Below, in pieces: positions 9,180 through 56,481 of a DNA stretch of 64,000 nucleotides. Positions within the stretch are counted from its first letter, which is position 1; each line of letters opens with the position of its first letter. Position numbers and translations under genes: made by a program. The notes beneath the pieces were generated by a model. That model was not told the DNA's origin, did no database searches, and was given only the letters and a program-made list of their open reading frames with translations. This stretch comes from Wenzhouxiangella marina (lineage in GTDB: Bacteria > Pseudomonadota > Gammaproteobacteria > Xanthomonadales > Wenzhouxiangellaceae): the NCBI RefSeq assembly GCF_001187785.1, contig NZ_CP012154.1:3342501-3406500 (forward strand), given 5' to 3'.

Positions 9180-9785
9180 CTAGCCGGCCGTGGGATGAGC
9201 CGCGTCCCGCTCCAGCTCACGCGCCATCCAGGCCCGCGCCAGGCGCCAGGCGCGTTTGACCGTCACCACGCTGATTCCCAGCGCGTCCGCCGTTTCCTCA
9301 TTGGTGTAACCGGCGAAATAGCGGCATTCGGTCACCCGGGCGGCGCGCGGATCGAGCTCGGCCAGGCCCTCGAGCAGGCGTTCGACCGCCAGCAGCTCCA
9401 GGCAACGATCGTCGCTCACCAGTCGGGCCAGGACGTCGGGGGCGTCGAGATCGACCCGCTCGCCACCACCGCCTCGCTTGAGGCGGCAGCGGTCTCGGGC
9501 ATGATTGACCAGGATCCGACGCATGGCCGTGCTGGCGACGGAAAAGAACTGGGCCCGATTGAGCCACTCGGCGCGGCTCTGGGCGGAGAGCTTGAGAAAG
9601 GCTTCATTGACCAGTGCCGTGGCCGACAGGGTGTGCCCGGGGCGCTCGGCATTGAGGTGGTGCTGAGCCAGGCGACGGAGCTCGCCGTAGACCTGCTGGT
9701 AAGCCTCGGCGAAGGCGTCCTGGGCACCCTCGCCCGTATTGAGCAACGCAGTCAGGTCCGGCGATGAAGCGTCGGACCCGCTCAT
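9180..9785 (-). CDS. ECF sigma factor, kinase-associated type (TIGR02999-like)
   Basis: 201 residues. Region 2 includes T-A-L-V-N-E-A-F-L-K-L and F-F-S-V-A-S-T-A-M-R-R-I-L-V-N-H-A-R; region 4 includes the helix-turn-helix Y-T-N-E-E-T-A-D-A-L-G-I-S-V-V-T-V-K-R-A-W-R-L-A-R. No anti-sigma factor is adjacent; a Ser/Thr kinase gene lies divergently 131 bases away. In the ECF43-type systems studied in Vibrio and Xanthomonas the sigma factor is switched on by threonine phosphorylation from such a kinase. T56, just before A-L-V-N-E, is the likely counterpart by position (inference). The start ATG at 9783-9785 has a weak ribosome site. Confidence 0.88.
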   Translation of the reverse strand: MSGSDASSPDLTALLNTGEGAQDAFAEAYQQVYGELRRLAQHHLNAERPGHTLSATALVNEAFLKLSAQSRAEWLNRAQFFSVASTAMRRILVNHARDRCRLKRGGGGERVDLDAPDVLARLVSDDRCLELLAVERLLEGLAELDPRAARVTECRYFAGYTNEETADALGISVVTVKRAWRLARAWMARELERDAAHPTAG

Positions 9786-9916
9786 TCGTCCCGGGCCGAC
9801 CTGAAGAAAGGGGATTCCCTGCGCATGGCCTCGATCATAGCCAGCCCGCCGCGGACCCGCAACGGCGCGGCCCGCCCTGTGTAGACTGGCCCTTCCCCAC
9901 TGCGGTCCGAGCGAGC

Positions 9917-12262
9917 ATGGACGAGCGCCGCCCGAGCAATTCTCCGAACGATTGGCAGGTCCTCAGCGATGCCTTCGACGAACTCGCCGAGGCGGCGCCG
10001 GCCGTACGTCAGGCTCGACTGGATGAACTGAAGCAGACTCGGCCCGAGCTGGCCTTGGAACTCGACTCCCTGCTGCACAGTCTGGACAGCCAGCCCGATT
10101 TTCTTCAGCGCCCGGCCCTGGACTGGACCGAGCACGAATCAGGCGATGGCTCCGCGCCCGAGCGCATCGGCCCCTACGTGCTGCTCGAGCGCGTTGGCCA
10201 GGGTGGCATGGGTCGCGTCTACCGGGCACGTCGGGATGACGGGGCGCTGGAGCAGGAAGTGGCGATCAAGATCGTTCAGGCCGGCGTGGACGATCCCCAT
10301 CACATCGAGCGCTTCGCCCGCGAAGCCCGGCTGCTGTCCCGACTCGACCACCCGGGCATCGCCCGCCCCCTCGACGCCGGCCTGCTCGACAAGGACCGGG
10401 CCTACCTGGTCATGGAGTTCGTCGATGGCGTGCCGATCGACCGTTACTGCCGAGAGCAGGCGCTGGACAAGAACGAAATCATCGAACTGCTGATCCAGGT
10501 CTGCGAGGCCGTGCAATTCGCCCACCGCAACCTGATCGTGCATCGCGACATCAAGCCGGCCAATGTGCTGGTCGATCGCCAGGGTCGGGCGCGGCTGCTG
10601 GACTTCGGCATTGCCCGGCTGCTCGAATCCGACGACGCAGATCTGACCCGAACGGGCCAGCTCGCCCTGACCCCGCGCTACGCCAGCCCCGAGCAGCTGA
10701 CCGGCGAGGCCATCACCACCGCCAGCGACGTCCATGCCCTCGGCGCCCTGGCCTACCAGCTGCTCTGCGGCCGACCGCCGCTGGATCTCGACGGCCTGTC
10801 CCTGCCCGCTCTGATCGACCGTGTCACCCGCGAACAGCCGGCCAAAGCCAGCGAGGCGGCGGCGGACACACGACTTGCCGGCGACCTCGACGCCATCCTC
10901 GCCATGGCCCTGCGCAAGGAGCCGGGGCGACGCTATGCCAGTGCCGGCGCCCTGGCCGATGACCTGCAACGCCACCTGCGCGGCGAGCCCGTCCAGGCGC
11001 ATCCGGATGAACTCGGCTACCGGCTCGGAAAATTCTTCCGCCGCCACCGGGGCGGCGTGATAGCCGGCCTGCTGACCGCCGTGGCCCTGATCGGGCTGGC
11101 CTCGATCGCCAGCCTGCAGGCCCTGCGGGCGGACCAGGCTCGAAGCCTGGCCGTGCAGGAAGCCGATCGGGCCAACCAGGTGCTGGCCTATTTCCAGCAG
11201 ATGCTCGCCTCCGTTCGCCCGGCCACGGCGCAGGGCGAGGACGTGCGCGTGCGCGACCTCCTCGATCGCACCGCCAGCACCCTCGCCGAGGCCGATCTGG
11301 ACCCCCTGGCCCGCGCCAGCGTCCAGGAAACCGTGGCCTCCACCTACCTCGCGCTCGGGCTGCCGCAGGCCGGCCTGCCGCTGGCCGAAGCCGCTTCGGC
11401 CACGCTGGAATCCACCCTCGGAGCCGACGACCCGCGCAGCCTCTCGGCCCGCCATGCCGAAGCCCGCTTCCATCTGTACCAGGCCCACTGGGACGAAGCG
11501 ATCGCCATCCTGGAACCCACCTTCGAGCGCCGCCGGGCCGTGCTCGGCGACCACATGGACACGATGTCCTCCCTGCACAACCTGGCGATGGCCTATGCGG
11601 GACGGGGCGAGGTCGAGCGAGCCCTGGAGATGGATCTGATCCAGCTGGCCATCGTCGAACGCCTGAGCGGCCCGGACAGCGCCGAAGCACTGACCACGCT
11701 CAGCAGCGTCGCCCACGGCTACTTCAGCCTGGGACGAATGGACGAGGCCCGCGACACCTTCGGGCGCATCCACGCCGGCCAGCGCGAGCTTCTCGGCGAG
11801 CGTCACCCGACCACCCTCAGCGCCCTGCACAACTACGCCACCCTGCTGCGACGAACGGGCGAGATCGACCAGGCTGAATCGCGTTACCTGGAGCTGATCG
11901 CCCTGCGCCGCGAGGTTCTGGGCGATCGCCACGCCCAGACCCTGAACTCGCTGAACAACCTGGGTGAGCTCTACCTGCACACGGACCGGCCCGACCGGGC
12001 CGCCCCCTTCATCGAAGAGGCCCTCGCCGGGCGCATGGCGGCGATGGGCGAAGCGCATCCCGACAGCATCGATTCCCTGGTCGCCAACGCCAAGCTCCGC
12101 CTGGCGCAGGGTCGGATCGACGAGGCACTCCCGCTGGCCCAGCGCGCCCATGAGCTGGCTGAAGCGCACTTGCCGGCCGACGGCGAACACCTCGACAAGG
12201 CAAGAAAGGTGCTGGCGGAGGCCAGGGAAGCACTGCGGCTCGACGACGCGTTGCAACCCTAG
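9917..12262 (+). CDS. Ser/Thr protein kinase with TPR sensor tail
   Basis: 781 residues. An N-terminal leader of about 80 residues is followed by a kinase domain near 84-345: G-Q-G-G-M-G-R-V-Y, V-H-R-D-I-K-P-A-N, D-F-G-I-A-R, Y-A-S-P-E-Q. One membrane segment lies near 379-400 and then a series of tetratricopeptide repeats to about 780 (repeated S-x-L-H-N-L-A / S-L-N-N-L-G-E-L-Y pattern). The start is set at the ATG at 9917; the frame is open further upstream but that part overlaps the sigma gene's leader. It is divergent from the ECF sigma gene and probably its activating kinase. The stop overlaps the end of the converging lipoprotein gene by 4 bases. Confidence 0.92.
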   Translation: MDERRPSNSPNDWQVLSDAFDELAEAAPAVRQARLDELKQTRPELALELDSLLHSLDSQPDFLQRPALDWTEHESGDGSAPERIGPYVLLERVGQGGMGRVYRARRDDGALEQEVAIKIVQAGVDDPHHIERFAREARLLSRLDHPGIARPLDAGLLDKDRAYLVMEFVDGVPIDRYCREQALDKNEIIELLIQVCEAVQFAHRNLIVHRDIKPANVLVDRQGRARLLDFGIARLLESDDADLTRTGQLALTPRYASPEQLTGEAITTASDVHALGALAYQLLCGRPPLDLDGLSLPALIDRVTREQPAKASEAAADTRLAGDLDAILAMALRKEPGRRYASAGALADDLQRHLRGEPVQAHPDELGYRLGKFFRRHRGGVIAGLLTAVALIGLASIASLQALRADQARSLAVQEADRANQVLAYFQQMLASVRPATAQGEDVRVRDLLDRTASTLAEADLDPLARASVQETVASTYLALGLPQAGLPLAEAASATLESTLGADDPRSLSARHAEARFHLYQAHWDEAIAILEPTFERRRAVLGDHMDTMSSLHNLAMAYAGRGEVERALEMDLIQLAIVERLSGPDSAEALTTLSSVAHGYFSLGRMDEARDTFGRIHAGQRELLGERHPTTLSALHNYATLLRRTGEIDQAESRYLELIALRREVLGDRHAQTLNSLNNLGELYLHTDRPDRAAPFIEEALAGRMAAMGEAHPDSIDSLVANAKLRLAQGRIDEALPLAQRAHELAEAHLPADGEHLDKARKVLAEAREALRLDDALQP

Positions 12263-12690
12263 ACTTCACCACATAGATCGGTCGCCTCGACGCGCCAGTT
12301 CAGGACTCGCAATTCGCCTCCAACGCGCTCGAGGTCGAGATTGGCGTGACGCGTTCCACCGTCGCCCGCGACCAGAGTGAATTCGACATAGCCGGTGTGC
12401 TTGAAGGCGCTGACCGAGCTGAAGGACCAGCCTTTCGGCTGAACAGCGGCAGCCTGGACCCGTTGCTCCAGCCCGGAGGCCGAGCCGCAGGCGGCCTGGA
12501 AATCGCCGTGCATTCGGCCGAAGGCCGCTTGCCAGGCGCCGGCCCGCAGATCGGCCAGGAAGTCCTCGGCCAGGGCTTCGGCTTCCGCCTCCCGGCCGGC
12601 GCCGCAGGCGGCGAGCACAAGGCCCGCCGCCATTCCCAGCACCAGGCCCCGCAGCGACGGGATCCGCCCCCCGCATCGCTCGCGCTTCAC
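12259..12690 (-). CDS. Small lipoprotein with NTF2-like fold (DUF4864/DUF4019 type)
   Basis: 143 residues. Signal peptide with lipobox L-V-L-A-A-C at about residue 29. The mature part (A-L-A-E-D-F-L-A-D-L-R-A-G-A-W-Q-A-A-F) has the helix pattern of small NTF2-like periplasmic proteins, and two further cysteines could pair. It starts with GTG overlapping the TGA of the upstream lipoprotein gene (GTGA), so the two are translationally coupled. Function unknown. Confidence 0.7.
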   Translation of the reverse strand: MKRERCGGRIPSLRGLVLGMAAGLVLAACGAGREAEAEALAEDFLADLRAGAWQAAFGRMHGDFQAACGSASGLEQRVQAAAVQPKGWSFSSVSAFKHTGYVEFTLVAGDGGTRHANLDLERVGGELRVLNWRVEATDLCGEV

Positions 12691-13310
12691 AGGCCCAAGC
12701 GCTCGGCTTCTTCGGGATTCTGCCGCTCGAGCAGATCGAAGAAAGCGTACTGGGTGAGGATGTTGAAACTCGCGAACAGTCGGTTGAACTCCCGGTTCGA
12801 GCTCATCACACCGGCGTCCCGGTAATGCCCATGCAACGCCGTGTAGGCCTCGTAGACCGGCTTGATCGCGGGGTCGTACTGCAGGCCGGACTGGACCCGG
12901 CTGACGGCGGACTGCACCGTGGCCTTGTCAGCATCCGAGAGGGCCTCGACCTTGCGCCCCAGGGCCACCAGGTCCTGAATATGGCGCTCGCGAACCCCAC
13001 GCATGCGCTCCAGGGCCACGGCCTCGTCCGGATGATCGGCCAGGGCCTCGGCGAGATCGGCGAAAGCCTGCACATAGACATCGGCCACGGCCTGGCCGAT
13101 TTCTTCCGCCGTGTTGGCGGCCGCCACATCGACCCCGCCGCCAGCCGCCGCACTGGATGACGACGATCCAGCGGGCGCCCCGGGTGCGGCGGCACTCGTC
13201 GCCTCATCGCTGCCACCACAGGCGGCCAGGGCGATGGCCAGCCCGAGCACGACCACGGCTCCACGCGTCGAGCGATGAGCTCGGTTGAAGTTGCTCCCAG
13301 AATCTTTCAT
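12687..13310 (-). CDS. Hypothetical lipoprotein
   Basis: 207 residues. Signal peptide and lipobox A-L-A-A-C-G-G near residue 31, a low-complexity Ala/Gly/Ser linker, then a mostly helical domain (A-V-A-D-V-Y-V-Q-A-F-A-D-L-A-E-A-L) with no family I recognise. It is first in a two-gene unit with the next small lipoprotein, overlapping by GTGA. Confidence 0.7.
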   Translation of the reverse strand: MKDSGSNFNRAHRSTRGAVVVLGLAIALAACGGSDEATSAAAPGAPAGSSSSSAAAGGGVDVAAANTAEEIGQAVADVYVQAFADLAEALADHPDEAVALERMRGVRERHIQDLVALGRKVEALSDADKATVQSAVSRVQSGLQYDPAIKPVYEAYTALHGHYRDAGVMSSNREFNRLFASFNILTQYAFFDLLERQNPEEAERLGL

Positions 13311-13419: not shown

Positions 13420-15153
13420 CTAGTTCTCGAATCGGGACGAAAAGATCGAATCGCTGACGACCTCGAAATCGGCGGTCACGACGCGTGCCGTCGTCAGATT
13501 CACGACGCATGGGCCCTGGCCACTGCAGGCCCCGCCCCAGCCGTTGAACTGGCTGCCCGGCGCCGGACTGGCGACGAGCGTGTAGCTCTGATCCCGCGGC
13601 AGGGGCAGCTGGCAGAAATCGGGGGCATCACAGCCCAGCGGCAGATCATCGACCAGGGACACCTGGCCGCCGCCCGTGCCGGGAAAGCCGACGCTGAGCA
13701 TGTAGGCATTGCCCCACTCGAAGGCGCCGATGTCGCACTGCCCGAGGCCGCCGCTGGCATTACCGTCGCGCGGGCGAGCTTCGCCGCGCTGATCGACGGT
13801 CAGAACGCTGTTGCCGGTGGCGTCCTCGCAGCTCAGGGGTCCCGCATCGACCGCCGCGCTGGCCGGATGCGGCGGCAGGGTTTCGGTCGGTCCTCCGTAA
13901 TCCCCCAGGGGCAGGAGTTCGACGTCCGTGAACGGCAGATCGCTGGCCTGCGAGGTGCAGGAATCGCCATGGGTTTCGAGGTTGTATCCGGACGACAGGA
14001 AACTGCCATCACCCTCACAGGGCGGCACGTCGGTCACGAACAGGCTACCGATCAGACGGGCGGTCCCGGCGCTGCCGGCGCGGATGGCGGCTCGAGCACT
14101 GAGCTGGAAGCTGCTGTACTGGATCCGGGTCTCGTTCTGATCGACGTGGATTTCGGCCTGCGCATCCGGAAAGGGCGGCACGTCATTGATGAAGGTGGAA
14201 TTGGTGATCGTCATCGCCACGGGTGCCGAGGTCTGGCTCGAACCGCTGGCGATCGAACGTCCCAGGGTGCTGTCGTTGTTGATGAAAAGGCTGCCGGAGA
14301 TCTGCGTCGAAGCGAAATCGCTGATCAGGGCCCCGCCCTGGTAGAAGGCATTGGCACCGATGGAGGTCAAATTGTCCTGAAACACGGATTCCCGAATCAC
14401 CAGCAGGCCCGACGACACGGCCGCCGCGATCGCGCCCCCTTCTCGATCGGCGCGGTTATTGATGAACACGCTGCCCTCGACGGTCAGGTCGAAGTCCGCC
14501 GCATCGGAGATCGAGCCACCGATATAGACCGCACCGCCGTAGAGGCTGGAAGCGTTGTTCTGCACGAACTCGCTGTCGCGGAGCGTCAGCTCGGTCAACG
14601 ATTGCGTCGGACCCACGGGAAAGGATCGGGAATTGATCGCACCGCCCACCGTTGGCGCCACGTTGGCATCGAAGCCGACCCGGTCGAACAGCACCTGATC
14701 GGCGTTGACGATCTGGACCGCGCTGTCCTGGAAACCTTCGATACGCAAGTTGGACAGGGAGAAGTCCTCGCCGGCATTGGCGACATCGATCTCGAAGGCG
14801 GGAAAGGTCCCCGCGCCTCCCGGCACCAGGACCAGATTGTCGATTCCGGGCCCGATGATGTTGGTGGTGTCGGTCACCACCAGCGGCGCTTGGAGGGAAA
14901 TCGTCAGGCCCGTCTGGCCGATCAGCACGAACACCCCGTCCGGTCCGGACGAGTCGCCGGCCGCGCAATCATCCACCGCCTGATTGGTGTTGGCCGCCAG
15001 GACGGCTTCGCGCAGGGAGCAGTTGTTGTCATTGACCACGGCGTCGCTGGGCTCGTCGACGAAGATCAAGGCAGCAGACAGCGGTCCGCTGATCAGCGTG
15101 CCCAGGGAGATGAACAGGATCGAGCAAAGCGCTCTGCAAGGAACATTCGACAT
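13420..15153 (-). CDS. Exported CSLREA-type parallel beta-helix protein
   Basis: 577 residues. Signal peptide, C-S-L-R-E-A-V motif near 45, then repeated short strands typical of right-handed beta-helices (I-E-G-F-Q-D-S-A-V-Q-I-V-N, S-E-F-V-Q-N-N-A-S-S, S-V-F-I-N-N-R-A-D, S-L-F-I-N-N-D). A D-A-G / D-I-G-A-F-E-W segment marks the choice-of-anchor end, and an InlB-B-like repeat with F-N-G-W-G-G-A-C-S-G follows. The C-terminus is D-S-I-F-S-S-R-F-E-N, matching the D-A-I-F-G-D-R-F-E tail of the protein at 21136-23388. The ATG at 15151-15153 with GGAG upstream is preferred to the GTG at 15162. It lies 46 bases behind the beta-helix gene at 15200-15961 and is probably co-transcribed. Likely surface or secreted. 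Confidence 0.82.
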   Translation of the reverse strand: MSNVPCRALCSILFISLGTLISGPLSAALIFVDEPSDAVVNDNNCSLREAVLAANTNQAVDDCAAGDSSGPDGVFVLIGQTGLTISLQAPLVVTDTTNIIGPGIDNLVLVPGGAGTFPAFEIDVANAGEDFSLSNLRIEGFQDSAVQIVNADQVLFDRVGFDANVAPTVGGAINSRSFPVGPTQSLTELTLRDSEFVQNNASSLYGGAVYIGGSISDAADFDLTVEGSVFINNRADREGGAIAAAVSSGLLVIRESVFQDNLTSIGANAFYQGGALISDFASTQISGSLFINNDSTLGRSIASGSSQTSAPVAMTITNSTFINDVPPFPDAQAEIHVDQNETRIQYSSFQLSARAAIRAGSAGTARLIGSLFVTDVPPCEGDGSFLSSGYNLETHGDSCTSQASDLPFTDVELLPLGDYGGPTETLPPHPASAAVDAGPLSCEDATGNSVLTVDQRGEARPRDGNASGGLGQCDIGAFEWGNAYMLSVGFPGTGGGQVSLVDDLPLGCDAPDFCQLPLPRDQSYTLVASPAPGSQFNGWGGACSGQGPCVVNLTTARVVTADFEVVSDSIFSSRFEN

Positions 15154-15199
15154 GGGTTGCACTCCGGAGTGGATCGGTCTGGTGGGGGACGGGCCTGGC

Positions 15200-15961
15200 T
15201 CAGTCGTTGTTGCCCAGGTCGGTGGCCGTACCGGCGTAGGCCTGTTGAACCGCCGCCGTCAGGTTGTCGCGGTAGCGAACCTCGCTGCCCAGGTAGAGGT
15301 AGAAGCCGATGCGGGCGTTCTGGACGCGGTTCTCGACCACCAGGTTGTTGTTGCCATTGCCGGTCGCGATGCCGGCCCCTGCGTTACGAACCAGCTGGAC
15401 ATCGTTGTTGCGGATCGTGTTGCCCTCGCCGCCGACGTAAAGACCGCGGCCATCGCGGTCCTCGCGAGCACCCGTGTCGACGATGTGGTTGTCCGCATAG
15501 ACGCCGAAGTCCCCTTCGGCAAAGATGCCGGCGTAGGCGCTCTGGTGGATGCGCATATTGCGCACCTGGTTGCCCTGGTTGCAGTCACCGCAACGCGACT
15601 GGCTGAGTTGCACGCCCGTGTCGAAGCAGCGCAGGGCGCCGTTGTGGACGAGCACGTTGCGTGCCTCGAACACATGCACTCCGATGCTGGGCTCGCCGAG
15701 CCACTCGGCGTTGCAGCTGCCGCCCTCGAAGGCCGGATTGCGTAGCGTATGACCGCGCAGGTCCAGTTCAACGTCGTTGGCCAGGATCAGAATCGCCGCA
15801 TCGCCCCCGCCCAGCGCCAACTCATGCGACTGATCCAGGCAGTACTTGCCGGGTCGATCGATCTCGGCCGGAAAGGCCTTGAGAATCTGGCAATCGAAGG
15901 CCGGGGCCGTCTGAGTAGCAAGCAGCAGGAAAACAGGAATCGAACGAAACAAGCGGTGCAT
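15200..15961 (-). CDS. Exported right-handed beta-helix protein (NosD/PbH1 type)
   Basis: 253 residues. Signal peptide (M-H-R-L-F-R-S-I-P-V-F-L-L-L-A-T), then beta-helix turns: V-E-L-D-L-R-G-H-T-L-R-N, V-L-V-H-N-G-A-L-R-C-F, I-R-N-N-D-V-Q-L-V-R-N-A-G-A-G-I-A, L-V-V-E-N-R-V-Q-N-A. Several Cys pairs are present, as expected for an exported protein. GAGGGA lies 6 bases before the ATG at 15961. A sigma-54-like promoter is 67 bases upstream, and the divergent neighbour encodes an AAA+ activator. No enzyme motif is recognised; related folds include polysaccharide lyases and passive adhesins. Confidence 0.8.
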   Translation of the reverse strand: MHRLFRSIPVFLLLATQTAPAFDCQILKAFPAEIDRPGKYCLDQSHELALGGGDAAILILANDVELDLRGHTLRNPAFEGGSCNAEWLGEPSIGVHVFEARNVLVHNGALRCFDTGVQLSQSRCGDCNQGNQVRNMRIHQSAYAGIFAEGDFGVYADNHIVDTGAREDRDGRGLYVGGEGNTIRNNDVQLVRNAGAGIATGNGNNNLVVENRVQNARIGFYLYLGSEVRYRDNLTAAVQQAYAGTATDLGNND

Positions 15962-16027
15962 GAGAATCCCTCGTCAATGAATGAATCGGATCGAATGCGA
16001 ACGGCGCAAACGTGACGAAGCTCTCAA

Positions 16028-16043
16028 TGCAGAAAGCATGCCA
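16028..16043 (-). promoter_or_regulatory. Candidate sigma-54 promoter for the beta-helix genes
   Basis: On the minus strand TGGCATG-CTTT-CTGCA, 10 of 12 consensus positions of TGGCACG-N4-TTGCW, with the GG and GC doublets at the required spacing. The predicted start is near 16017, about 56 bases before the beta-helix ATG. Confidence 0.5.
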
Positions 16044-16228
16044 GCCGAGCAGAAGTCGCTCAGGCTGCTGTTTTTACAGGATTTTCCCGGACCTCTCTCG
16101 CTTGCTCATTCCCCGGGAGCGGGACGGGGGCCGGACCGAGCCTGGCCGAGACGCTGGCGCAGGGCTCGCGTTTATCGGGCCTGCGCAGTATTCTCGATTT
16201 CGAGAACGGGATTGTCAGGTCCGAGATC

Positions 16229-17911
16229 ATGGCTTCGATCACATTGATGGCGCACTACGCCAGCGGCGAGCGGCGCTATCCACTCGATGCAGGCTGCTGG
16301 CTGATCGGCTCGCACGAAGACTGCGACGTACTGCTCGGCGATCCGACCGTCTCGCGCCGCCATGCCCGACTGGAATTCGCCGATGCCGAGTGGAGCCTCG
16401 AAGACCTGGGCTCGAGCAATGGTGTGCAGATCAATGGTGAAGCCCTGACCGGGCGGCGGCGAGTGCAGCCGGGCGACCGACTCCAGTTCGGCAGCCTGAT
16501 CTGTTCATTGATCGAGACCGATCCGACCGATCTGGAGCTGGCCGTCCCCGCCGAAAGCCGGGGCGGGCGGTCCGACCGACCCTCCGCCTCCATCGAGCAG
16601 CGGGGGCCCACGATCTCCAGCGATCGCATCAGCCGCTTCTACTTCGAGACCCTGCCCGCCCTGGTCCGGCGCTGTACCCGGCAGCGTCCGGGCGAGGCCG
16701 TGGTCACGGTCGTGGCCGCGCTGGCGGACAGTCTGGGCGGCAGCTGGACCCTGAGCCTGGACGGCGCGGTCCAGGCCACGTCCGGCCCCGCGACACCCGA
16801 GCAGGATCGGGAACAGGCCCATGAAGAGCATGACTGGCGCTTGGCCCGACGCGCCAGACAGGCCCTGAACGATCGGACCTACCGACAGATCGCCGAGACC
16901 ATTCTGCCTCTGATCGAGCGAACGAACGCAAGCCGGTCATCGGGCCGGACGCCGGACTCGGACACGACCGTGCCGCCGTTCCCGGAGCCCGTGACGCGCC
17001 ATGCAGCGCTGCTCAACCTCTATCGGCAGGCGGCTCGAGTCGCGACGTCGGTGCTCAACGTCCTGATCGAGGGAAGCTCGGGCACCGGCAAGGAGTTGTT
17101 CGCGCGCTACCTGCACCGCTGCGGCAGTGACGGCCAGCCCCTGGTGACCCTCAACTGCGCCAGCCTGCCGCAGGACCTGCTCGACGCCGAACTGTTCGGC
17201 ATCGAACGCGGGGTGGCCACCGGCGTCGATGCGCGGCCCGGCAAGTTCGAGCAGGCCGATGGCGGGGTGATCTTTCTCGACGAGATCGGCGACATGCACC
17301 TGGCCACCCAGGCCAAGCTGCTGCGCGTGCTCCAGGAGCAGGAAGTCTATCGGGTCGGTGGCAGCCGGCCGAGACCGGCCCGCATTCAGGTGGTGTCCGC
17401 CACCAATCGGGACCTGGAGGCGATGGTCGCGCAGGGCGAGTTCCGACTCGACCTCTACCATCGGATCGCCGACTGGACCGTCCGTCTGCCCGATCTCGAA
17501 GAGCGCGCCGTCGACATCGCCAATCTGGCCGCCTACTTCCTGCGCCGCGCCTGCGGTGACATCGGTCAGCGCTTCGGCGGGATTTCCCAAGCCGCCCTCG
17601 ACTGCCTGCTCGCGCATCGCTGGCCCGGCAATGTCCGCGAACTCGAACGCGAGATGAAGCGCTGCGCCCTGTTTCTGGAGCCCGGCGAGGCGCTGCGCTC
17701 CGACCATCTCGACGCCCGCATCCGCCAGGCCAGAGGCACGGGCGGTCCCGTCGAGGGCTTGAAGGCGCTGCTGATCCGCACCGAGAAGCGCGCCATCGAG
17801 CAGGCGCTTCAACTCTGCGGCGGGGACGTGGCGGCGGCGGCCGACCGGCTCGGTATCGGCAAATCGACCCTTTATCGGCAGATTCGCAATCTGGACATCG
17901 ACACGGCCTGA
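16229..17911 (+). CDS. FHA-AAA+-Fis transcription activator (sigma-54 activator family)
   Basis: 560 residues. FHA domain near 20-95 (I-G-S-H-E-D-C, S-R-R-H-A-R, S-S-N-G), a linker of unclear fold, then the AAA+ domain: Walker A G-S-S-G-T-G-K-E near 282, Walker B G-V-I-F-L-D-E-I-G near 346, sensor and R-finger region R-L-D-L-Y-H-R-I. A Fis-type helix-turn-helix is near 515-555 (A-A-A-D-R-L-G-I-G-K-S-T-L-Y-R). The sigma-54 contact loop G-A-F-T-G-A is replaced by G-V-A-T-G-V near 327, so interaction with sigma-54 may be altered. The kinase gene follows after 4 bases, so phosphothreonine sensing by the FHA domain is the obvious input. Confidence 0.88.
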   Translation: MASITLMAHYASGERRYPLDAGCWLIGSHEDCDVLLGDPTVSRRHARLEFADAEWSLEDLGSSNGVQINGEALTGRRRVQPGDRLQFGSLICSLIETDPTDLELAVPAESRGGRSDRPSASIEQRGPTISSDRISRFYFETLPALVRRCTRQRPGEAVVTVVAALADSLGGSWTLSLDGAVQATSGPATPEQDREQAHEEHDWRLARRARQALNDRTYRQIAETILPLIERTNASRSSGRTPDSDTTVPPFPEPVTRHAALLNLYRQAARVATSVLNVLIEGSSGTGKELFARYLHRCGSDGQPLVTLNCASLPQDLLDAELFGIERGVATGVDARPGKFEQADGGVIFLDEIGDMHLATQAKLLRVLQEQEVYRVGGSRPRPARIQVVSATNRDLEAMVAQGEFRLDLYHRIADWTVRLPDLEERAVDIANLAAYFLRRACGDIGQRFGGISQAALDCLLAHRWPGNVRELEREMKRCALFLEPGEALRSDHLDARIRQARGTGGPVEGLKALLIRTEKRAIEQALQLCGGDVAAAADRLGIGKSTLYRQIRNLDIDTA

Positions 17912-17915
17912 TCCG

Positions 17916-20900
17916 ATGAGCGAGTCCCGCATCGACTGGCACACGGGCGTGCCGCTGGCCCAGGGTGGCAACGGCGAGGTGGTGCGCGCCTACTCGCCGG
18001 ATCTCGGTCGGGACATCGCGATCAAGTACCTGCGTCAGGAAGACCCGGCCGCCATCGAACGCATGCTGAGGGAAGCGCGCACTCAGCGCGCCCTGTCCCA
18101 TCCGCACATCCTGCCGATCCATGCGACCGGCGTGCACCTCGACCGCCACTACATCGCCATGGAGTTGGTCGATGGCGCACCCCTGGATCGCTACCTGGCC
18201 GACCGCTCGACGGAACTGAAGCTGGCGGTTTTCGATCAGGTGCTGGATGCGATGGCCCATGCCCATGCCCAGGGCGTCGTTCACCGCGACCTCAAGCCCG
18301 GCAATCTGATGGTAGAGGAAGGCGACGGCCGACCGCAGGCCTGGGTGATGGATTTCGGCCTGGCGCGCCGGCCCGACGACGCCACCCTGACGATGGCCGG
18401 GGACGCCCTGGGCACCCCCGGCTACATGGCGCCGGAGCAGGCCCGCGGTGCCGAAGGCGCCGACCCGCGCGCGGATGTCTACGCCCTGGGCGTGGTGCTC
18501 TACGAAGTGCTGACGGGCGCCCTGCCCTACACCGCCGATACCCCGATGGCACTGGTCATGCAGGCCGCTGCCGGCCAGACCGTGCCGGTTTCGGAAATTC
18601 GCCGACGGCTGCCCGAAGGCCTGGCCCGAATCGTCGTGCGCTGCCTCGAAACCGAGCCGGCGCGCCGCTACGCAGACGCCGGCGAACTGAGGGCGGACCT
18701 CGCGGCCTTCAGCGCCGGCCAGGTCATCGCCGCACCCGTGCTGGGCAGGCGCTACCGCTTCGCGCGCTGGATGCGCAGCAATCCCTGGCGAGCCCGTTCG
18801 AGCCTCGCCCTGGGGGCCGTAGTGCTGATCGGTGCAGCATCGCTGGTGGTGATGGCAGAGCAGAATCGCCGCGCACTGAGCACAGCCAGCGAGCTGATCG
18901 CCGAGGCCGAGCGAGCCCGCGGGGACTGGCATATCGAGCAGCTACTGCCCCTGCACGATCAACGCGCGGCCCTTGCAGAGGCTCGCGAGACCGTCGACCG
19001 TCTCGCCGCCACCCGCGACCAGCTGAGCGAGGCGGCGAGCGCCCGCATCGATGCGGCCCTGGCCGATCTCCTCGACGCCATCGGTGAACCGGCCCGCGCC
19101 TTCGAACACGCCGAGCGCGCCTGGCGCGGCGGCGTGCGCACCACCAGCGTGGCCAATCGGGCCGCGCGAGCCCGACTGCAGCAGTTCGGCGCCCGCCGCC
19201 TCGAGCTCGGTCTGACCGCCGATGCCGCCTCGCTCGCCGAACTCCAAGCGCTGGAACGCGACGCCCTGGCGAGTGATCTCGAACCCTACCGCAGCCTGCT
19301 CGGCGCGGACCTCCGACAACGCATCGAACGAGCCCTGGACGCCGAAGGCGCGCCTACGCCCAACGTGGAATCGCAGGCCGAAACGCCGCTGCTGAGCCCC
19401 GATGACTGGCAGAACGCCTTGCTCGATCTGCAGGCCGAGACGGTTCGTCGCATTGACCAGCTCAACGTCGCCCCCGATGAGGCCCTGGCCGCGCTGGAAG
19501 ACGTGGACGTCAGACTCGAGGATCTTCGACGAACTGCTCGATCCTACCTGCCGGTCTATCAGCTCGGCTGCACGATCGCGGCCGCGCGCCAGTCCCTGCA
19601 GACCATGCAGACCGAAGACGCCGCCATCGACACCTCGAGACAGGCCTGCGATCAGGGCCTGCAGCTGATTGCCGATGACTCGGAGCTGCTGGCGACCTCC
19701 TCGATGCAACTCTGGCTCCGCGCCAAGGACCTGCTGCGCGATCGCCAGCCCCTGACCGAACCGCTGAACGACGCCATCGCTCAGGCCCGTCGGGCGCTCG
19801 AGCTCGACCCGGACAATGAACTCGCCCAGCTGTCCCTGGGTTCGGCGCTTCAGGTGCTGGGCCGCAAGCAGCTGGCCGAGGGCGAGGACCCCGAAGCGGC
19901 GCTCGAAGCCTCGCTGCGCTGGCTGGAACGAGTTCATCAGGCCCGCCCCAATGACGTCAACGTCATGAACAATCTGGCCGTGACCTGGAGCACCATCGCA
20001 TCGGCAGGCCTCGGTGAAGGAGGCTCCCGCGCCGCGCTCGAAGCCGAACGCCAGAGCGTGAACTGGCTGCGGGCGGCCAGCGCCGTGACCCCGGGAGACC
20101 GGCGACTGATGCACAACATGCTGGCCAGCCGGGGCAATGTGGCCTACCAGGACGCCTTGCTCGGCCGCGATCCGACCGAGGAACTGACCGTGATCATCCG
20201 CGGCCTGGAGGAACTGGTCGAGCAGCATCCCGACTACATTTCGCCCCTGAACACCCTCGGCCTGAACTGGTGGACCCTGGGCCTGTGGCAGGCCCTGATC
20301 GGCCAGGACCCGGCGCCCGCCATGGGCGAGGCCAGGTCGGCGCTGGAACGCGCCATGGAACTTCGACCGGACTGGGACAGCCCGCGCATCAACCACGCTG
20401 GCGTCGCTCGTCAGTGGTTCGCCTTGAGCGACACGCCGCCGAGCCCGGCGCTGACCGCCCTGGCGGACCAGGCGCTGGCCAGTTACCGAGGCCTGGAGGA
20501 CAGTGGCCTGGTGGACGATGACGAAGGACCCAGCGAATTGGGTTGCCTGATCAGCGAAGTGCTGGTCGCTCGCGCGCGCTGGAGCCCACCAGCACAGGCA
20601 CAAGCGCTTCTGCTGGAAGCCGAAGCGCTGAGCCGCCTGGACCGCAACATCGACTGGATGCACGGCGATTGCCAGGTCGCCCGGGCGCGCCTGGGCCCGC
20701 TCTGGATCAGCCACCGCCTCGACGCGGACACCCTCGCCGAGCTGTGGAACGAAACCCGCTCCGCCAGCGAGGACAGTGACCACCCCCTGTTGCTGATCGC
20801 CGCCCAGCGATTCGCCAGAACGGGCGGCCACGAAGCGTCAGCCAGCGAACTGACGGCACGCATCCCCGAGGCGTTCCGTCATCGGATCCTGGCAGCGGAC

Positions 20901-20921
20901 CGTGCGATCGCGAGCCCCTGA
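17916..20921 (+). CDS. Ser/Thr protein kinase with long TPR-like tail
   Basis: 1001 residues. Kinase domain near 12-270: Q-G-G-N-G-E-V-V glycine loop, A-I-K, V-H-R-D-L-K-P-G-N near 122, D-F-G-L-A-R, G-T-P-G-Y-M-A-P-E-Q. A membrane segment lies near 297-315 (L-A-L-G-A-V-V-L-I-G-A-A-S-L-V-V). About 680 residues of helical repeats follow, with T-P-R-like units such as A-L-E-L-D-P-D-N-E-L-A-Q-L-S-L-G. Architecture resembles the other kinase-TPR protein in the window but the tail is longer. It begins 4 bases after the FHA-AAA+ activator, so the two form an operon and probably a phosphorylation pair. Confidence 0.9.
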   Translation: MSESRIDWHTGVPLAQGGNGEVVRAYSPDLGRDIAIKYLRQEDPAAIERMLREARTQRALSHPHILPIHATGVHLDRHYIAMELVDGAPLDRYLADRSTELKLAVFDQVLDAMAHAHAQGVVHRDLKPGNLMVEEGDGRPQAWVMDFGLARRPDDATLTMAGDALGTPGYMAPEQARGAEGADPRADVYALGVVLYEVLTGALPYTADTPMALVMQAAAGQTVPVSEIRRRLPEGLARIVVRCLETEPARRYADAGELRADLAAFSAGQVIAAPVLGRRYRFARWMRSNPWRARSSLALGAVVLIGAASLVVMAEQNRRALSTASELIAEAERARGDWHIEQLLPLHDQRAALAEARETVDRLAATRDQLSEAASARIDAALADLLDAIGEPARAFEHAERAWRGGVRTTSVANRAARARLQQFGARRLELGLTADAASLAELQALERDALASDLEPYRSLLGADLRQRIERALDAEGAPTPNVESQAETPLLSPDDWQNALLDLQAETVRRIDQLNVAPDEALAALEDVDVRLEDLRRTARSYLPVYQLGCTIAAARQSLQTMQTEDAAIDTSRQACDQGLQLIADDSELLATSSMQLWLRAKDLLRDRQPLTEPLNDAIAQARRALELDPDNELAQLSLGSALQVLGRKQLAEGEDPEAALEASLRWLERVHQARPNDVNVMNNLAVTWSTIASAGLGEGGSRAALEAERQSVNWLRAASAVTPGDRRLMHNMLASRGNVAYQDALLGRDPTEELTVIIRGLEELVEQHPDYISPLNTLGLNWWTLGLWQALIGQDPAPAMGEARSALERAMELRPDWDSPRINHAGVARQWFALSDTPPSPALTALADQALASYRGLEDSGLVDDDEGPSELGCLISEVLVARARWSPPAQAQALLLEAEALSRLDRNIDWMHGDCQVARARLGPLWISHRLDADTLAELWNETRSASEDSDHPLLLIAAQRFARTGGHEASASELTARIPEAFRHRILAADRAIASP

Positions 20922-21083
20922 AGCCGCGGCCCACGCGACAGCGTCGATTCCCTGATTCGATAAACGCATTCTCTCAAGCGAGAAGCGGGCCCGTGGAATT
21001 CACGATTCGACGGACCCGAAGACTAAGCCCAAACCACTGAAAAGATGGAAGAAACCAGCCTCTTCGAGATTGCCGTCGGACGC

Positions 21084-21099
21084 TGGCCTGGTTCTTGCT
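21084..21099 (+). promoter_or_regulatory. Candidate sigma-54 promoter upstream of the exported beta-helix gene
   Basis: TGGCCTG-GTTC-TTGCT matches 10 of 12 consensus positions of TGGCACG-N4-TTGCW with correct GG/GC spacing. The predicted start is near 21110, 26 bases before the ATG at 21136. Confidence 0.5.
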
Positions 21100-21135
21100 T
21101 AGAGCTATCCCAAACCACTTTCGGGTCGCTCTGCC

Positions 21136-23388
21136 ATGATTTCTCCTCGCCAAGAACGGGCTTTGGCCCCTCACTCTGCCCAGACACTTTCCTGCCTTTC
21201 TCTCGCGCTGCTCCTATGCCTGATCGGTAGCCCGGCCCTGGCCGCCACCATCTGGGTCAACACCAACAGCGACAGCATCGCCAACGACGCACGCTGCTCC
21301 CTGCGAGAGGCCCTGTCGGCCAGCGCCAGCAACGCCGCCGTCGGCGGCTGCAGTGCGGGAAGCAGCGGCACCGCCGACCTGATCCGCTTCGACTGGGATG
21401 ACTTCGAAGGCGGCACTGTCCTCGGCGCCATCATCAATCTGAGCCAGGGTCCGCTGATCGTCAGCGACGCCGATCTGGTCATCGACAATTCCGGCGGACG
21501 CCGCCTGACCGTTTCGGCCCAGAACCTGCACCGCGTGATGGAAGTGGCCCAACCCGCCGCTGCGAGCCTGACCCTGATCAATCTGGGCCTCCGGGATGGC
21601 CTGGCCGAAGCACCCGACCCCCACGGCGGCGCCCTGCTCCTGGTCAGCGGCACCCGGACCCTGACCCTTCAGAACATGACGATCCGCAGCAGCCAGGCCC
21701 TGGCCGGCGCCGGCGGGGCTCTCGCCTTCGGCGCTGACCTCGAGGTCCTGAACATCAGCGAATCCCGTTTCACCAGCAATTCCGCCGGCCGCTCCGGCGT
21801 GCTGGGCTCCGTCGACGCCATCCATGGCAGCGACCTGAGCATCGCCATCAGCGACAGCGGCTTCTTTGCCAATACCGCCCTGAGCAGCGGCGGCGTGCTG
21901 AGCCTGGGCCTGAGCCCGACCAGCAGCGCCGAAGTCATCCGCGTCGACATCGTCGACAGCCAGTTCGGAGGCAACAGCGCCGAGGCTAGCGGTGGCGCCC
22001 TCCATTTCGAGCCCGGCGCCATCGACGCCAGCCTGATCGTTCTCGACAGCCTGTTCGAAGACAATCTGGTCAATGACGGCGCAGGCGGCGCCATCAATGT
22101 CAGCGGCGGCGCCGTCGGTTCGGGCCTGGCCGTGGTCGACGTGCAGCGCTCCAGCTTCATCGGCAACCGCGCCTTCATCGGCGCCGCGGTCCGCAGTGCG
22201 CTGACGCCGACGAGGCTGATCAACAACCTGTTCCTCGACAACCTGAGCGGATCCTCGGCGGCCGTCAACGTCTCGCCGATCGTCCCCTTCCTGTCGACCC
22301 TGCCATCGACCCTCGTCGGCAACACCTGGGCCGGCAACCTGGCGAGCCAGGACGAGGGCCAGCCGGCGGGCCTGGCGACCGACCTGTCCTATGCAAGCGA
22401 CTGGAGCACGGGCCAGCATCGCCTGGTCGGCAATCTCTTCATCCCGGTGGCCAACGCTCCTGCCTGCAATTTCGGCCAGAGCGATACCAGCCAGACCAGC
22501 CTGGCCTCGATCAACCACAACCTCACCGTGTCCGACGGCGGCCAGGTGGTCAGCGCCTGCGAGCTGGTCCTGTCCGACGGTCAGGGCATGGCTTTCGAGG
22601 ACCCCATCGCCGTCCATGCCCTGCGCGAGGCAACGGGTGATCTCCTCAAGCCCTGGCGCATCCGCTTCGGGGCCGGCAGCACTGCCGTCGACGCCTGGCC
22701 GCGCAGCGACTGCCGGGATGAAACGGCCTTTCCGGTGGTGCTGGATCTGGACCGGAACCGCTTCGTCCCCGACGCCGGTGGCGACCCGATCGACGGCAAT
22801 CCCGCGCTGACGGCCGCCTGCGACATCGGCGCCTTCGAGAACCGCGAGGGCCGCACCCTGGACATCAGCGTCTCCGGCAGTGGGCGGGTGTTTTCCGACC
22901 CGGTCCCGGCCATCGACTGCACCGGCAGCTGCTCGAGCTTCGCCCAGCAGTTCGACACGGTGGACCTGCGCTGGCTGAACGAGCCGGGCTCGGTGTTCGC
23001 CCAGTGGGATGGCGACTGCAGCGGCAGCGCCGAGTGCGAGGTCGACCTCGACCAGAACAGAGTCGTACTGGCGACCTTCACGACCACCGCCACCCATCCG
23101 ATCGATATCCAACTGGCCGGCACCGGCGAAGGCCGGGTGGTCAGCGTCAATTCGACCTACGGCATGGACTGCCCCGACTACAACTGCACCGGTCACTTCG
23201 AAGCCGGCAGCGTCGTCGTGCTGGAAGCGATTCCGGCCGAGGGATCGAGCTTCGTCGCCTGGGAAGGCGACTGCCAGTTCGGCTGCGACGATCCGGTGAT
23301 CGGCCTCACCCTCAACGGCCCACGCCAGTACATCGCCCGCTTCGATTTCGACGACGCCATCTTCGGCGACCGCTTCGAGAGCCCCTAG
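21136..23388 (+). CDS. Exported CSLREA-type beta-helix protein with InlB-B-like repeats
   Basis: 750 residues. Signal peptide ending A-L-A-A, C-S-L-R-E-A-L near 55, then a long beta-helix with N-N / G-G-A-L units (S-R-F-T-S-N-S-A-G-R, S-Q-F-G-G-N-S-A-E-A-S-G-G-A-L, S-L-F-E-D-N). D-I-G-A-F-E-N ends the helix; two InlB-B-like repeats with C-x-x-x-C and F-x-x-W-x-G-D-C follow. The tail is D-D-A-I-F-G-D-R-F-E-S-P, shared in pattern with the protein at 13420-15153. It lies just downstream of the activator-kinase operon behind its own sigma-54-like promoter. Probably secreted or surface attached; function unknown. Confidence 0.82.
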   Translation: MISPRQERALAPHSAQTLSCLSLALLLCLIGSPALAATIWVNTNSDSIANDARCSLREALSASASNAAVGGCSAGSSGTADLIRFDWDDFEGGTVLGAIINLSQGPLIVSDADLVIDNSGGRRLTVSAQNLHRVMEVAQPAAASLTLINLGLRDGLAEAPDPHGGALLLVSGTRTLTLQNMTIRSSQALAGAGGALAFGADLEVLNISESRFTSNSAGRSGVLGSVDAIHGSDLSIAISDSGFFANTALSSGGVLSLGLSPTSSAEVIRVDIVDSQFGGNSAEASGGALHFEPGAIDASLIVLDSLFEDNLVNDGAGGAINVSGGAVGSGLAVVDVQRSSFIGNRAFIGAAVRSALTPTRLINNLFLDNLSGSSAAVNVSPIVPFLSTLPSTLVGNTWAGNLASQDEGQPAGLATDLSYASDWSTGQHRLVGNLFIPVANAPACNFGQSDTSQTSLASINHNLTVSDGGQVVSACELVLSDGQGMAFEDPIAVHALREATGDLLKPWRIRFGAGSTAVDAWPRSDCRDETAFPVVLDLDRNRFVPDAGGDPIDGNPALTAACDIGAFENREGRTLDISVSGSGRVFSDPVPAIDCTGSCSSFAQQFDTVDLRWLNEPGSVFAQWDGDCSGSAECEVDLDQNRVVLATFTTTATHPIDIQLAGTGEGRVVSVNSTYGMDCPDYNCTGHFEAGSVVVLEAIPAEGSSFVAWEGDCQFGCDDPVIGLTLNGPRQYIARFDFDDAIFGDRFESP

Positions 23389-23425
23389 GACCCACTGAAC
23401 CCCCTCGAGACCCAAGGAGATCACC

Positions 23426-24409
23426 ATGTCCCTTCGCACCCTCGCCTGCCTGACCCTGCTCGGCCTGCTGATTCGCCCCGTGTCCGCCGACGAGCTCCGC
23501 AGCCCGCACGGCGTGGCCATCGACCCGGCCGCGCCCCACCCCTCGCTGCTCTTCTCGGACCTGCTCAAATCCATGTCCGATCAGGTGGTCTGGGAGCAGG
23601 GCAAGCTGCGCTTCTTCGAGCGCGTCCGCTTCGCCTTCCTGCCCGACTTCAATGACCCGCAGCACATCGCGGCCTACAACCCGAATACAGGCGCCTTCCT
23701 GACCAGCCAGATCACGGACGCGACCGGGAATGTGGTCCAGACCGTGCAATGGGAGGCCCGGCGCGAAGCCTTTCCGATCTGGGTCGGCCAGGCCGTCAAC
23801 AATTCCGACCCCGCCCCGCTCGCGCCGGGCGCCTACACCGCCACCTGGACCCTCGATGGCCAGGCCTTCTGGGCAATGGATTTCGAGCTCGTCGCCTCCG
23901 GCGGGGCCAGCCCCTACGAGCAAGGCCATTACCTGCTCGAAGGGCCATGGTCCGAGTGGGCATATGTCTACGTCCCCAACGGGAACCTGAGTCAAGCCCC
24001 GACCTTCAACCTGTTCCTGCGCGATGCCGAGGCCCGGCCCTGGCAATGGACGGATCAGGTGGTCGTCATCGAGGTCTATCGAAATGGAGAACTTGTCGCC
24101 CAGCACGGCCACAACGCCGGCGCCTCGCGCCCGGCCAGCATCGTCCAGGCGAAGCCCTGGTGGGTGGCCCATGAATTCAGTCTGCGATCAGCCACCGACG
24201 ATGGCTTTGTGCCGGCCAGCGCCCTGACCGAGGCCGGGGCCTATGAAGTCCGCGTCGGCATCAACGGTGAGCCTTGGGGCGTCTTCCGCTACGCTGCCGA
24301 CGGCAGCCTGCCACGGCCCGATCGCCAGAGGCGCGGCAGCGACGATCCGATGCACTTCCTCGAAGGCCTGACGGACCGCTTCTACCTGCAGCGCGTTCAG
24401 GCCGACTGA
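23426..24409 (+). CDS. Exported protein of unknown family
   Basis: 327 residues with a clear signal peptide (M-S-L-R-T-L-A-C-L-T-L-L-G-L-L) and an AAGGAG site 6 bases upstream of the ATG. The mature part is rich in Trp and Tyr with beta-type spacing (Y-T-A-T-W-T-L-D-G-Q-A-F-W-A-M-D-F-E-L; Y-E-V-R-V-G-I-N-G-E-P-W-G-V-F-R-Y). I do not recognise a family. It begins 37 bases after the beta-helix gene and is very likely on the same transcript, so it may be a partner of that surface protein. Confidence 0.75.
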   Translation: MSLRTLACLTLLGLLIRPVSADELRSPHGVAIDPAAPHPSLLFSDLLKSMSDQVVWEQGKLRFFERVRFAFLPDFNDPQHIAAYNPNTGAFLTSQITDATGNVVQTVQWEARREAFPIWVGQAVNNSDPAPLAPGAYTATWTLDGQAFWAMDFELVASGGASPYEQGHYLLEGPWSEWAYVYVPNGNLSQAPTFNLFLRDAEARPWQWTDQVVVIEVYRNGELVAQHGHNAGASRPASIVQAKPWWVAHEFSLRSATDDGFVPASALTEAGAYEVRVGINGEPWGVFRYAADGSLPRPDRQRRGSDDPMHFLEGLTDRFYLQRVQAD

Positions 24410-56417: not shown

Positions 56418-56481
56418 AGTCGGATCCCACCAGATTGACTCCCGGGCACAACGCCGATGCGCGGCACCCGGTTCGATTCTA

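Follow-up and report, generated by a model that had tools for sequence, protein, structure and literature searches.

Genes and candidate promoters at the locus

The window, the 64-kb stretch of Wenzhouxiangella marina DNA that was analysed, contains an activator gene and a kinase gene on the plus strand, with their open reading frames 4 bp apart, flanked on both sides by genes for predicted exported proteins (Table 1). The ORF calls and the domain search agree with the earlier note, which had read 16229-20921 as an operon for an FHA-AAA+-Fis activator and a Ser/Thr kinase. Matches above the profile cut-offs were obtained for PF00158 (187.5 bits), PF25601 and PF02954, the domain set of a sigma-54 enhancer-binding protein (bEBP), and the FHA fold was recognized by PF00498 (70.4 bits) and PF16697 (66.3 bits). 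TIGR02915 matches residues 255-557 with an E value of 2.7e-75, albeit at 253.9 bits, far under its curated cut-off of 502.6. The kinase retains K37, HRDLKP and DFG of a eukaryote-like Ser/Thr kinase domain, and a single strong hydrophobic segment at about residues 295-316 is followed by a long C-terminal part with a weak TPR match under the cut-off. The window also carries an ECF-kinase pair at 9180-12262.

Table 1 Features of the activator-kinase locus, in window positions
Feature	Positions	Strand	Remark
Short lipoprotein-like gene, LAAC at N-terminus (by eye)	12259..12690	-	probable last gene of minus unit
Lipoprotein-like gene, LAAC (by eye)	12687..13310	-	
BH2, predicted exported CSLREA protein	13420..15162	-	CSLREA match at G000:C1:3357489-3357545
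BH1, predicted exported right-handed beta-helix/NosD-like protein	15200..15961	-	first gene past minus site
Candidate -24/-12 sigma-54-like promoter CTGGCATGCTTTCTGCA	16028..16044	-	highest score in window, 17.4
Palindrome TTCTCGATTTCGAGAA, candidate enhancer (UAS)	16191..16206	.	162 bp upstream of minus site
Activator: FHA, middle domain, AAA+ (Sigma54_activat), Fis-type HTH	16229..17911	+	profile search
GVATGV codons, activator residues 328-333	17210..17227	+	at GAFTGA loop position
Ser/Thr protein kinase	17916..20921	+	domain search, intact catalytic motifs
Second palindrome TTCTCTCAAGCGAGAA, candidate enhancer	20969..20984	.	114 bp upstream of plus site
Candidate -24/-12 sigma-54-like promoter CTGGCCTGGTTCTTGCT	21083..21099	+	second-highest score in window, 16.4
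BH3, predicted exported CSLREA-like protein	21136..23388	+	probable beta-helix
H4, predicted exported protein	23426..24409	+	no known family

Export of the flanking proteins is predicted from their N-termini, as judged by eye. The earlier note had placed beta-helix genes on both sides of the operon; the flanking layout was borne out, but the minus side carries two such genes, and BH1, which directly follows the site, had been omitted. BH1 matches the Pfam Beta_helix model with an E value of 2.8e-11, whereas BH2 reaches 20.3 bits, under the Pfam cut-off of 25.9. BH2 also has a weak InlB-like repeat match in its C-terminal part and ends in SIFSSRFEN, while BH3 ends in IFGDRFESP. The assignment of the downstream BH3 as a beta-helix protein was upheld in part: no Pfam beta-helix match was found and the CSLREA model also missed this protein, but its structure model, of low confidence (mean pLDDT 42.6), displays repeating strand triplets. 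The best PDB matches of the model are mostly pectate-lyase-type beta-helices, none of them significant. By eye, the protein encoded at 12687..13310 seems related, through YAFFDLL, to the product of the gene that directly follows the sigma-54-like site of locus L172.

Sites were scored with a position-weight matrix. The two candidate promoters are both intergenic, and the next same-strand exported-protein gene, as positioned by a simple in-house gene caller, lies 67 bp (minus) and 37 bp (plus) away. Both match 10 of 12 consensus positions, exactly where the earlier note had put them. Such matches are not rare, since 15 sites with at least 10/12 occur in the 64-kb window, one of which, 56596-56611 on the minus strand, is a better consensus match (11/12; matrix score 15.1 for 56596-56612) and is the only other of the 15 that is intergenic and less than about 100 bp from a same-strand gene. 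Likewise, at no more than 3 mismatches to the 13-position pattern the window count showed no excess over shuffles (56 versus 56.9), and match counting was therefore dropped as evidence. As consensus matches are not above chance, the case for the sites rests on conservation. Sites scoring at least 13.5 also occur off promoters in larger loci, e.g. inside genes of L062 and L065. A single rpoN match was found in the genome (TIGR02395, 438.3 bits).

Sigma-54 control as a general trait of CSLREA proteins was considered and rejected: among the 10 CSLREA loci of the genome only the BH2 unit has a site of at least 13 within the scanned 1.5 kb upstream. With the nine other loci lacking one, the putative control seems tied to the module and not to the protein class.

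Palindromes and their conservation

TTCTC-N6-GAGAA occurs at 6 places in the 3.68-Mb genome, two of them in this module, where the minus-side copy lies 22 bp ahead of the activator gene. Putative -24/-12 promoters with palindromes upstream thus lie beside the presumed targets, as expected of a bEBP. When related loci were scanned for the two sites and the gene order, L062 yielded both site-palindrome pairs and L169 that of the minus side, whereas the cargo genes change. L062 is a close ortholog locus, with an activator 95% identical and a BH1 ortholog at 92%; it has no BH3 counterpart between the kinase and H4, and the H4 ortholog (74%) directly follows the promoter. L169, from another genus, keeps the minus palindrome and site ahead of a 253-aa BH1-like gene in an intergenic region that has otherwise diverged. 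The palindrome-to-site spacing is 161 bp in L169, 162 bp in the window and 161 bp in L062. These conserved local pairs support the self-contained regulatory layout proposed in the earlier note, but its plain sigma-54 reading is opposed by the GVATGV loop of the activator, a change (GVATGV/GAATGV instead of GAFTGA) that the note had missed.

The relatives with the changed loop fall into two clades, A (14 members) and B (13 members), the activator of the window belonging to clade A. An exact TTCTC palindrome was found in 3/14 clade-A member loci (L159, L165 and L169), in each 22 bp ahead of the activator gene. The W. marina genome carries a second FHA-activator/kinase module, a paralog with its own palindrome pair and a site scoring 19.9 (maximum 20.2); here the two copies of GTTCGC-N4-GCGAAC are the only two in the genome. 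This palindrome is present in exact form in 3/13 clade-B loci. L174 has it once exact and once with 1 mismatch, at the 43-bp spacing of the paralog, and keeps both copies though its divergent site scores just 8.7; L180 has it once exact and once with 2 mismatches. Strong sites with neither palindrome beside them were found at L063, L064, L066 and L067.

Palindromes lie 79-162 bp upstream of a site in five loci: the window, L062, L169, L030 and L180. An unguided inverted-repeat scan, in which the best repeat per region was compared with shuffles, was weak as stand-alone evidence and was set aside as such: the palindromes of the window, L030, L062 and L169 gave P values of 0.13-0.19, none was returned at L063 or L066, and the plus-side palindrome of the window, with outer arms of 5 bp, was not listed.

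The activator loop, its clade and the FHA domain

The activator has GVATGV at the loop position, with Ala in place of the GAFTGA Phe, so that the usual aromatic third residue is absent. GVATGV or GAATGV is found in 27/27 clade members, which span five families of the order, and T331, G332 and the ATPase motifs are invariant in the aligned members. The same genome encodes ordinary activators with the loops GAFTGA, GAFTDA and GAYTDA. As far as the available text of PMC3162934 and PMC2941729 shows, replacement of the GAFTGA Phe mostly abolishes sigma-54 activation; published work indicates that only Tyr can substitute for it in PspF, and a large survey filtered true sigma-54 activators by an intact GAFTGA motif (PMC3162934).

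Nevertheless, a site of at least 15 lies within 320 bp in 14/27 clade members, or 15/28 with L070 included, against 0.2 expected from shuffles and 2/18 for ordinary activators, counts that are not independent because the clade members are related. L070, chosen for its loop, is an outlying Myxococcota protein with GVATGV and a GAF instead of an FHA domain; it groups with ordinary activators in the tree, and the loop may thus have arisen separately. The 13/28 that have no such site nearby are mostly of clade B, in which 2/13 have one, and at L171 the sole site is directed back at the end of the activator gene. A search for relatives in genome contigs (80 loci) gave mostly ordinary activators, because AAA+ motifs dominated, with L070 the sole GVATGV protein among the parsable loops. 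No further GVATGV was found at threshold in a class sample of 369 genomes with at most 3 candidates scored each, the two matches outside the window's own genome both being GAFTGA, and no Desulfovibrio record appeared among the plasmid matches listed (40 of 2,398 records).

In FHA domains a conserved Arg after the loop Gly binds phosphothreonine, and a conserved Ser-Arg-x-His and an Asn take part in its reading. The latter are retained (S42, R43, H45 and N64 are invariant among 9 aligned members), whereas the Arg position is occupied by Ser in the window activator (G-S), by Ser or Thr in 14/14 clade-A members and by Arg in 9/13 clade-B members. A kinase gene lies within about 1.5 kb in 19/28 family members, a count that includes the window activator, but in 0/22 ordinary activators. 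With the usual Arg missing, the step from kinase to activator stays one that we infer, from the adjacency of the genes.

Regulatory interpretation and known systems

The domains, sites, palindromes, loop and their conservation are read directly from the DNA, and on this basis we regard a local sigma-54 control module with two targets and a kinase-linked FHA-AAA+-Fis activator as the probable arrangement. The membrane-anchored kinase, with a long, sensor-like C-terminal part that is presumably periplasmic, would signal to the activator through phosphorylation or FHA binding. The activator may then bind TTCTC-N6-GAGAA at 16191 and 20969, as the conservation suggests, and remodel sigma-54 RNA polymerase at 16028-16044 minus and 21083-21099 plus. 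If active, the minus promoter would turn on BH1, BH2 and the lipoproteins and the plus promoter BH3 and H4, for products possibly located at the surface, while the palindrome just ahead of the activator gene probably also restrains the activator's own operon. Given the clade loop, the contact with sigma-54 would have to occur without the GAFTGA Phe. A broader joint reading has, in our estimate, an even chance of being correct: the clade activates sigma-54 RNA polymerase directly via a non-aromatic loop, clade A reads the kinase through an Arg-less FHA domain, and the modules are insulated switches, each with a private palindrome and with exported cargo exchanged between fixed promoters. The kinase would then act on clade A by docking or another non-standard route.

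Chance occurrence of both the sites and the palindromes in intergenic DNA that is rich in GC, with the genes controlled by other means, would fit the 15 consensus matches and the shuffle-like counts of the window, but is made highly improbable by conservation and spacing across genera, the enrichment over shuffles and the rarity of the palindromes. Somewhat less improbable is that, to work with sigma-54, the activator has to form mixed hexamers with an ordinary activator of the genome, which supplies the aromatic loop. Ordinary-loop activators are indeed present, and hetero-oligomers of such activators in myxobacteria were reportedly described by Volz in 2012. On the other hand, the loop change is fixed in the clade across five families, no neighbouring gene call resembles a second activator by eye, and the palindromes are rare and located at the modules.

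Unlikely, yet to be taken seriously, is a palindrome-binding activator that has lost the ability to work with sigma-54, as TyrR and VpsR have, and instead serves sigma-70 promoters or represses its own operon; another activator of the genome would then use the -24/-12 sites, unless these are relics. The GVATGV loop favours such a protein, loop-defective homologs being named as sigma-70 dependent in the available part of PMC3162934, as do the palindrome positions in L159, L165 and L169 and the retention of palindromes in L174, where the sigma-54-like site is weak. Conversely, it would not account for the enrichment of strong sites relative to ordinary activators or for the placement of palindromes upstream of sites in five loci, and the invariant T331, G332 and ATPase motifs speak against a dead loop.

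Under the favoured two-target sigma-54 module, the locus would link a kinase to enhancers in a compact circuit that controls exported proteins, the kinase step being the presumed one. Contact with sigma-54 has been regarded as requiring the GAFTGA Phe, which is missing throughout this clade, yet about half of the members adjoin strong sigma-54-like promoters. Private enhancer palindromes accompany some of these, and the single rpoN of the window genome must serve ordinary activators too. Both the need for an aromatic residue and the rule by which sigma-54 dependence is assigned are thereby directly testable.

Among known systems, FHA-domain enhancer-binding proteins of Myxococcus xanthus, a presumed connection between Ser/Thr kinases and sigma-54, were reportedly linked to fruiting-body development by Jelsbak, Givskov and Kaiser in 2005. 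They share the FHA domain on a sigma-54-type activator, whereas clade A has Ser/Thr at the FHA Arg position and a GVATGV/GAATGV loop. The TIGR02915 PEP-CTERM-box response regulators and NtrC-type activators are related in the AAA+ and HTH part, but have receiver domains where the window activator has FHA. In PknS-EcfK of Xanthomonas citri, as described in the available text of PMC6653060, a transmembrane Ser/Thr kinase is likewise combined with a dedicated transcription factor beside its target genes, but there the kinase acts with an ECF sigma factor, and a type VI secretion system is the target.

The GVATGV loop itself was already known from DVUA0100 of Desulfovibrio vulgaris Hildenborough (Kazakov et al. 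2015, PMC4641369), and among the open-licence papers listed by the search only this one concerns GVATGV in a sigma-54 activator. In the available text of that paper, by whose description the two were compared, DVUA0100 governs a type III secretion cluster, is a single protein in its genome and has a long N-terminal region, possibly with unknown sensing domains; no kinase pairing is mentioned in that text, unlike in the window module. Its sigma-54 promoters and predicted motif adjoin its own gene, and the authors inferred that the substitutions leave sigma-54 activation possible. The window activator likewise combines the GVATGV loop with a sigma-54-like promoter at its own locus.

Layout of the module

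The operon proposed in the earlier note, with its kinase gene, and the two sigma-54-like sites were recovered at the positions claimed, as seen from the window sequence and the domain search. The accompanying layout held insofar as an exported gene lies on each side, whereas the single gene envisaged on the minus side did not, since two exported genes follow the minus site. The domain search matched no known Pfam family to H4, the exported-protein gene after BH3. The predicted structure of the activator has a mean pLDDT of 79.5 and, in our reading of its domains, shows a strand-rich N-terminal part and an alpha/beta middle region (~132-234), followed by the AAA+ and HTH parts.

Features of the FHA-activator module and its surroundings in the window
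Feature	Position	Description
BH2	13420-15162	Minus unit, after BH1; then two lipoprotein-like genes
BH1	15200-15961	Minus unit, first gene after minus site
Minus site	16028-16044	Sigma-54-like; same-strand gene begins 67 bp further on
TTCTC palindrome	16191-16206	162 bp upstream of minus site
-10-like element	Within 16191-16228	TATGCT/TATTCT-like, by eye; directly ahead of activator gene
Activator	16229-17911 (+)	560 aa; FHA, AAA+ and Fis-type HTH domains
Kinase	17916-20921 (+)	1001 aa; catalytic motifs intact; a single strongly hydrophobic stretch around residues 295-316
TTCTC palindrome	20969-20984	114 bp upstream of plus site
Plus site	21083-21099	Sigma-54-like; same-strand gene begins 37 bp further on
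BH3	21136-23388	Plus side, ahead of H4
H4	23426-24409	Plus side, after BH3

A kinase gene lies within ~1.5 kb for 19 of 28 family proteins, compared with 0 of 22 ordinary activators, and this adjacency supports a kinase-activator circuit; at three of the loci compared (L065, L066 and L067) the kinase is divergent from the activator, not downstream. The Ser-Arg-x-His and Asn residues of the FHA domain are conserved in all nine aligned members. Because the loop Arg position is occupied by Ser or Thr in 14/14 members of clade A, to which the window's activator belongs (Arg in 9/13 of clade B), phosphothreonine reading by its FHA domain, as judged from the residues, is not supported.

Close to the module, the region 9180-12262 contains a PknS-EcfK-like pair, in which an ECF sigma factor gene (minus) and one for a Ser/Thr kinase (plus) are transcribed divergently, and a protein with two FHA matches is encoded at 7146-9017. 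The kinase query returned 30 places in the whole genome at E ≤ 0.001, its own module included, which is many Ser/Thr kinases for 3.7 Mb.

Activator loop and sigma-54-like sites

A profile search of the order sample found 27 clade members in 19 of 398 genomes, and in the tree these form one well-supported clade (support 100/99) separate from eight ordinary activators. At the position of GAFTGA, the usual sigma-54-contacting loop, all 27 carry GVATGV or GAATGV, and the GAFTGA that marks sigma-54 activators is absent from the window's activator. In an alignment of ten proteins, the loop was GVATGV in 8 and GAATGV in 2. Ordinary loops in the same genome are GAFTGA, GAFTDA and GAYTDA (L011, L013, L014; L012 and L017 were unmatched by the loop script), and rpoN gave a single match. 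The outlying protein L070, from a Myxococcota MAG, was chosen for its GVATGV and hence stands outside the 27/27 count; it has a GAF rather than an FHA domain and groups with ordinary activators. GVATGV is also recorded for DVUA0100 in PMC4641369, where the protein is inferred to be still functional at sigma-54 promoters.

Sites matching at least 10 of 12 consensus positions are common in the window (15), and a looser consensus gave the same count as in shuffles. By a weight matrix derived from the consensus, the minus and plus sites, both intergenic, outscore all others in the window, at 17.4 and 16.4 respectively (maximum 20.2). Another of the 15, an intergenic sigma-54-like sequence at 56596-56611 minus (TGGCGCGCCCTTTGCA, 11/12 positions), lies 101 bp ahead of an FHA-GGDEF protein gene (55509-56495 minus).

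Across the family, 15 of the 28 activator genes (L070 and 14 of the 27 in the clade) have a site scoring at least 15 no more than 320 bp away, versus 0.2 expected from dinucleotide shuffles. The members are related, so that the events are not independent, and some loci are truncated at contig ends. Among ordinary activators the figure was 2/18 (22 supplied, 4 unparsed). Sites occur in 12/14 of clade A, 11 of them in a sensible orientation, and in 2/13 of clade B, the clades being those of the tree. Seven of the 15 proteins have a divergent upstream site and seven a sense downstream one; L171 has an antisense downstream site only, and L170, in the sense downstream group, has an additional upstream site facing its own activator. 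Where readable among the loci other than L171, the genes after the sites have signal-like N-termini by eye (starts at L063, L064 and L067 read from sequence, not automatically; the L170 downstream gene incomplete, reaching the locus end), with the exception of the L170 upstream site and L070. At L070, a site scoring 15.7 (9791-9807) lies shortly past the activator gene, ahead of a DnaJ-like gene.

The window's activator thus lacks GAFTGA, yet its surroundings say that it would work in the manner of a sigma-54 activator. The interest lies in this tension, which is decidable by experiment.

Palindromes and conservation

TTCTC-N6-GAGAA, first spotted by eye from the two copies in the module and tested afterwards, occurs at 6 places genome-wide, 2 of them in the module, versus 1 for the reversed control; in a blind inverted-repeat scan these palindromes were not significant region by region. 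Exact copies are present in just 3 of 14 clade-A loci (L159, L165, L169). L064 has one at 5633, ~2.4 kb off its site, and pattern search found none at L063, L066 or L067.

The close ortholog L062 (genome G010), whose activator is 95% identical, retains the two palindromes and the two sites (TTCTCGCAAGCGAGAA at 10987, CTGGCGCGCTATTTGCA at 11121); BH3 is missing, with H4 directly after the promoter, and BH1 is separated from BH2 by an additional gene of 904 aa. Similarly, at L169, from a different genus (G459), TTCTCAAAATTGAGAA is found 161 bp upstream of the site of a BH1-like gene, and the alignment shows the palindrome and -24/-12 conserved and the remaining DNA diverged. The sites being kept at both loci despite the gene differences, regulatory sites stay and cargo changes. 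Overlap of the -10-like element with the palindrome in the window suggests that the activator may repress its own gene; such elements were also seen ahead of the activator at L063, L064, L168, L173 and L182.

A second FHA-activator/kinase pair in the same genome (L030, 38% identity) has a divergent site, CTGGCACGTGTCTTGCT, which scores 19.9 and faces the gene of an exported protein that matches P_proprotein and DUF11. Its intergenic region contains two GTTCGC-N4-GCGAAC palindromes, the genome's only two. L174, from another family of the order, has one exact and one single-mismatch copy at the 43-bp spacing of L030, and its best divergent site (8.7, with a poor -12) is near the matching place; L180 has an exact and a two-mismatch copy spaced by 44 bp, and L182 one copy with one mismatch.

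As DNA architecture, the module proposed earlier is well supported. The odds for this reading rest on the close orthologs and the clade-wide site count; the spread of the palindromes is limited.

A recurrent C-terminal motif

Variants of [ILV]F-x-D-R-F-E occur in BH2 and BH3, and the motif directly precedes the stop in many proteins of the genome, being located ≤13 residues from the stop in 27 of 30 loci checked out of 86 DNA matches. The motif resembles a C-terminal sorting tag; a literature search on its letters gave, among the papers listed and judged by title, none on such a tag. Over 121 genomes of the order, matches were near control level in some (0 vs 0 in G057, 2 vs 5 in G441) and in strong excess in others (107 vs 2 in G040, and 86 vs 3 for the reversed control in the window's own genome).
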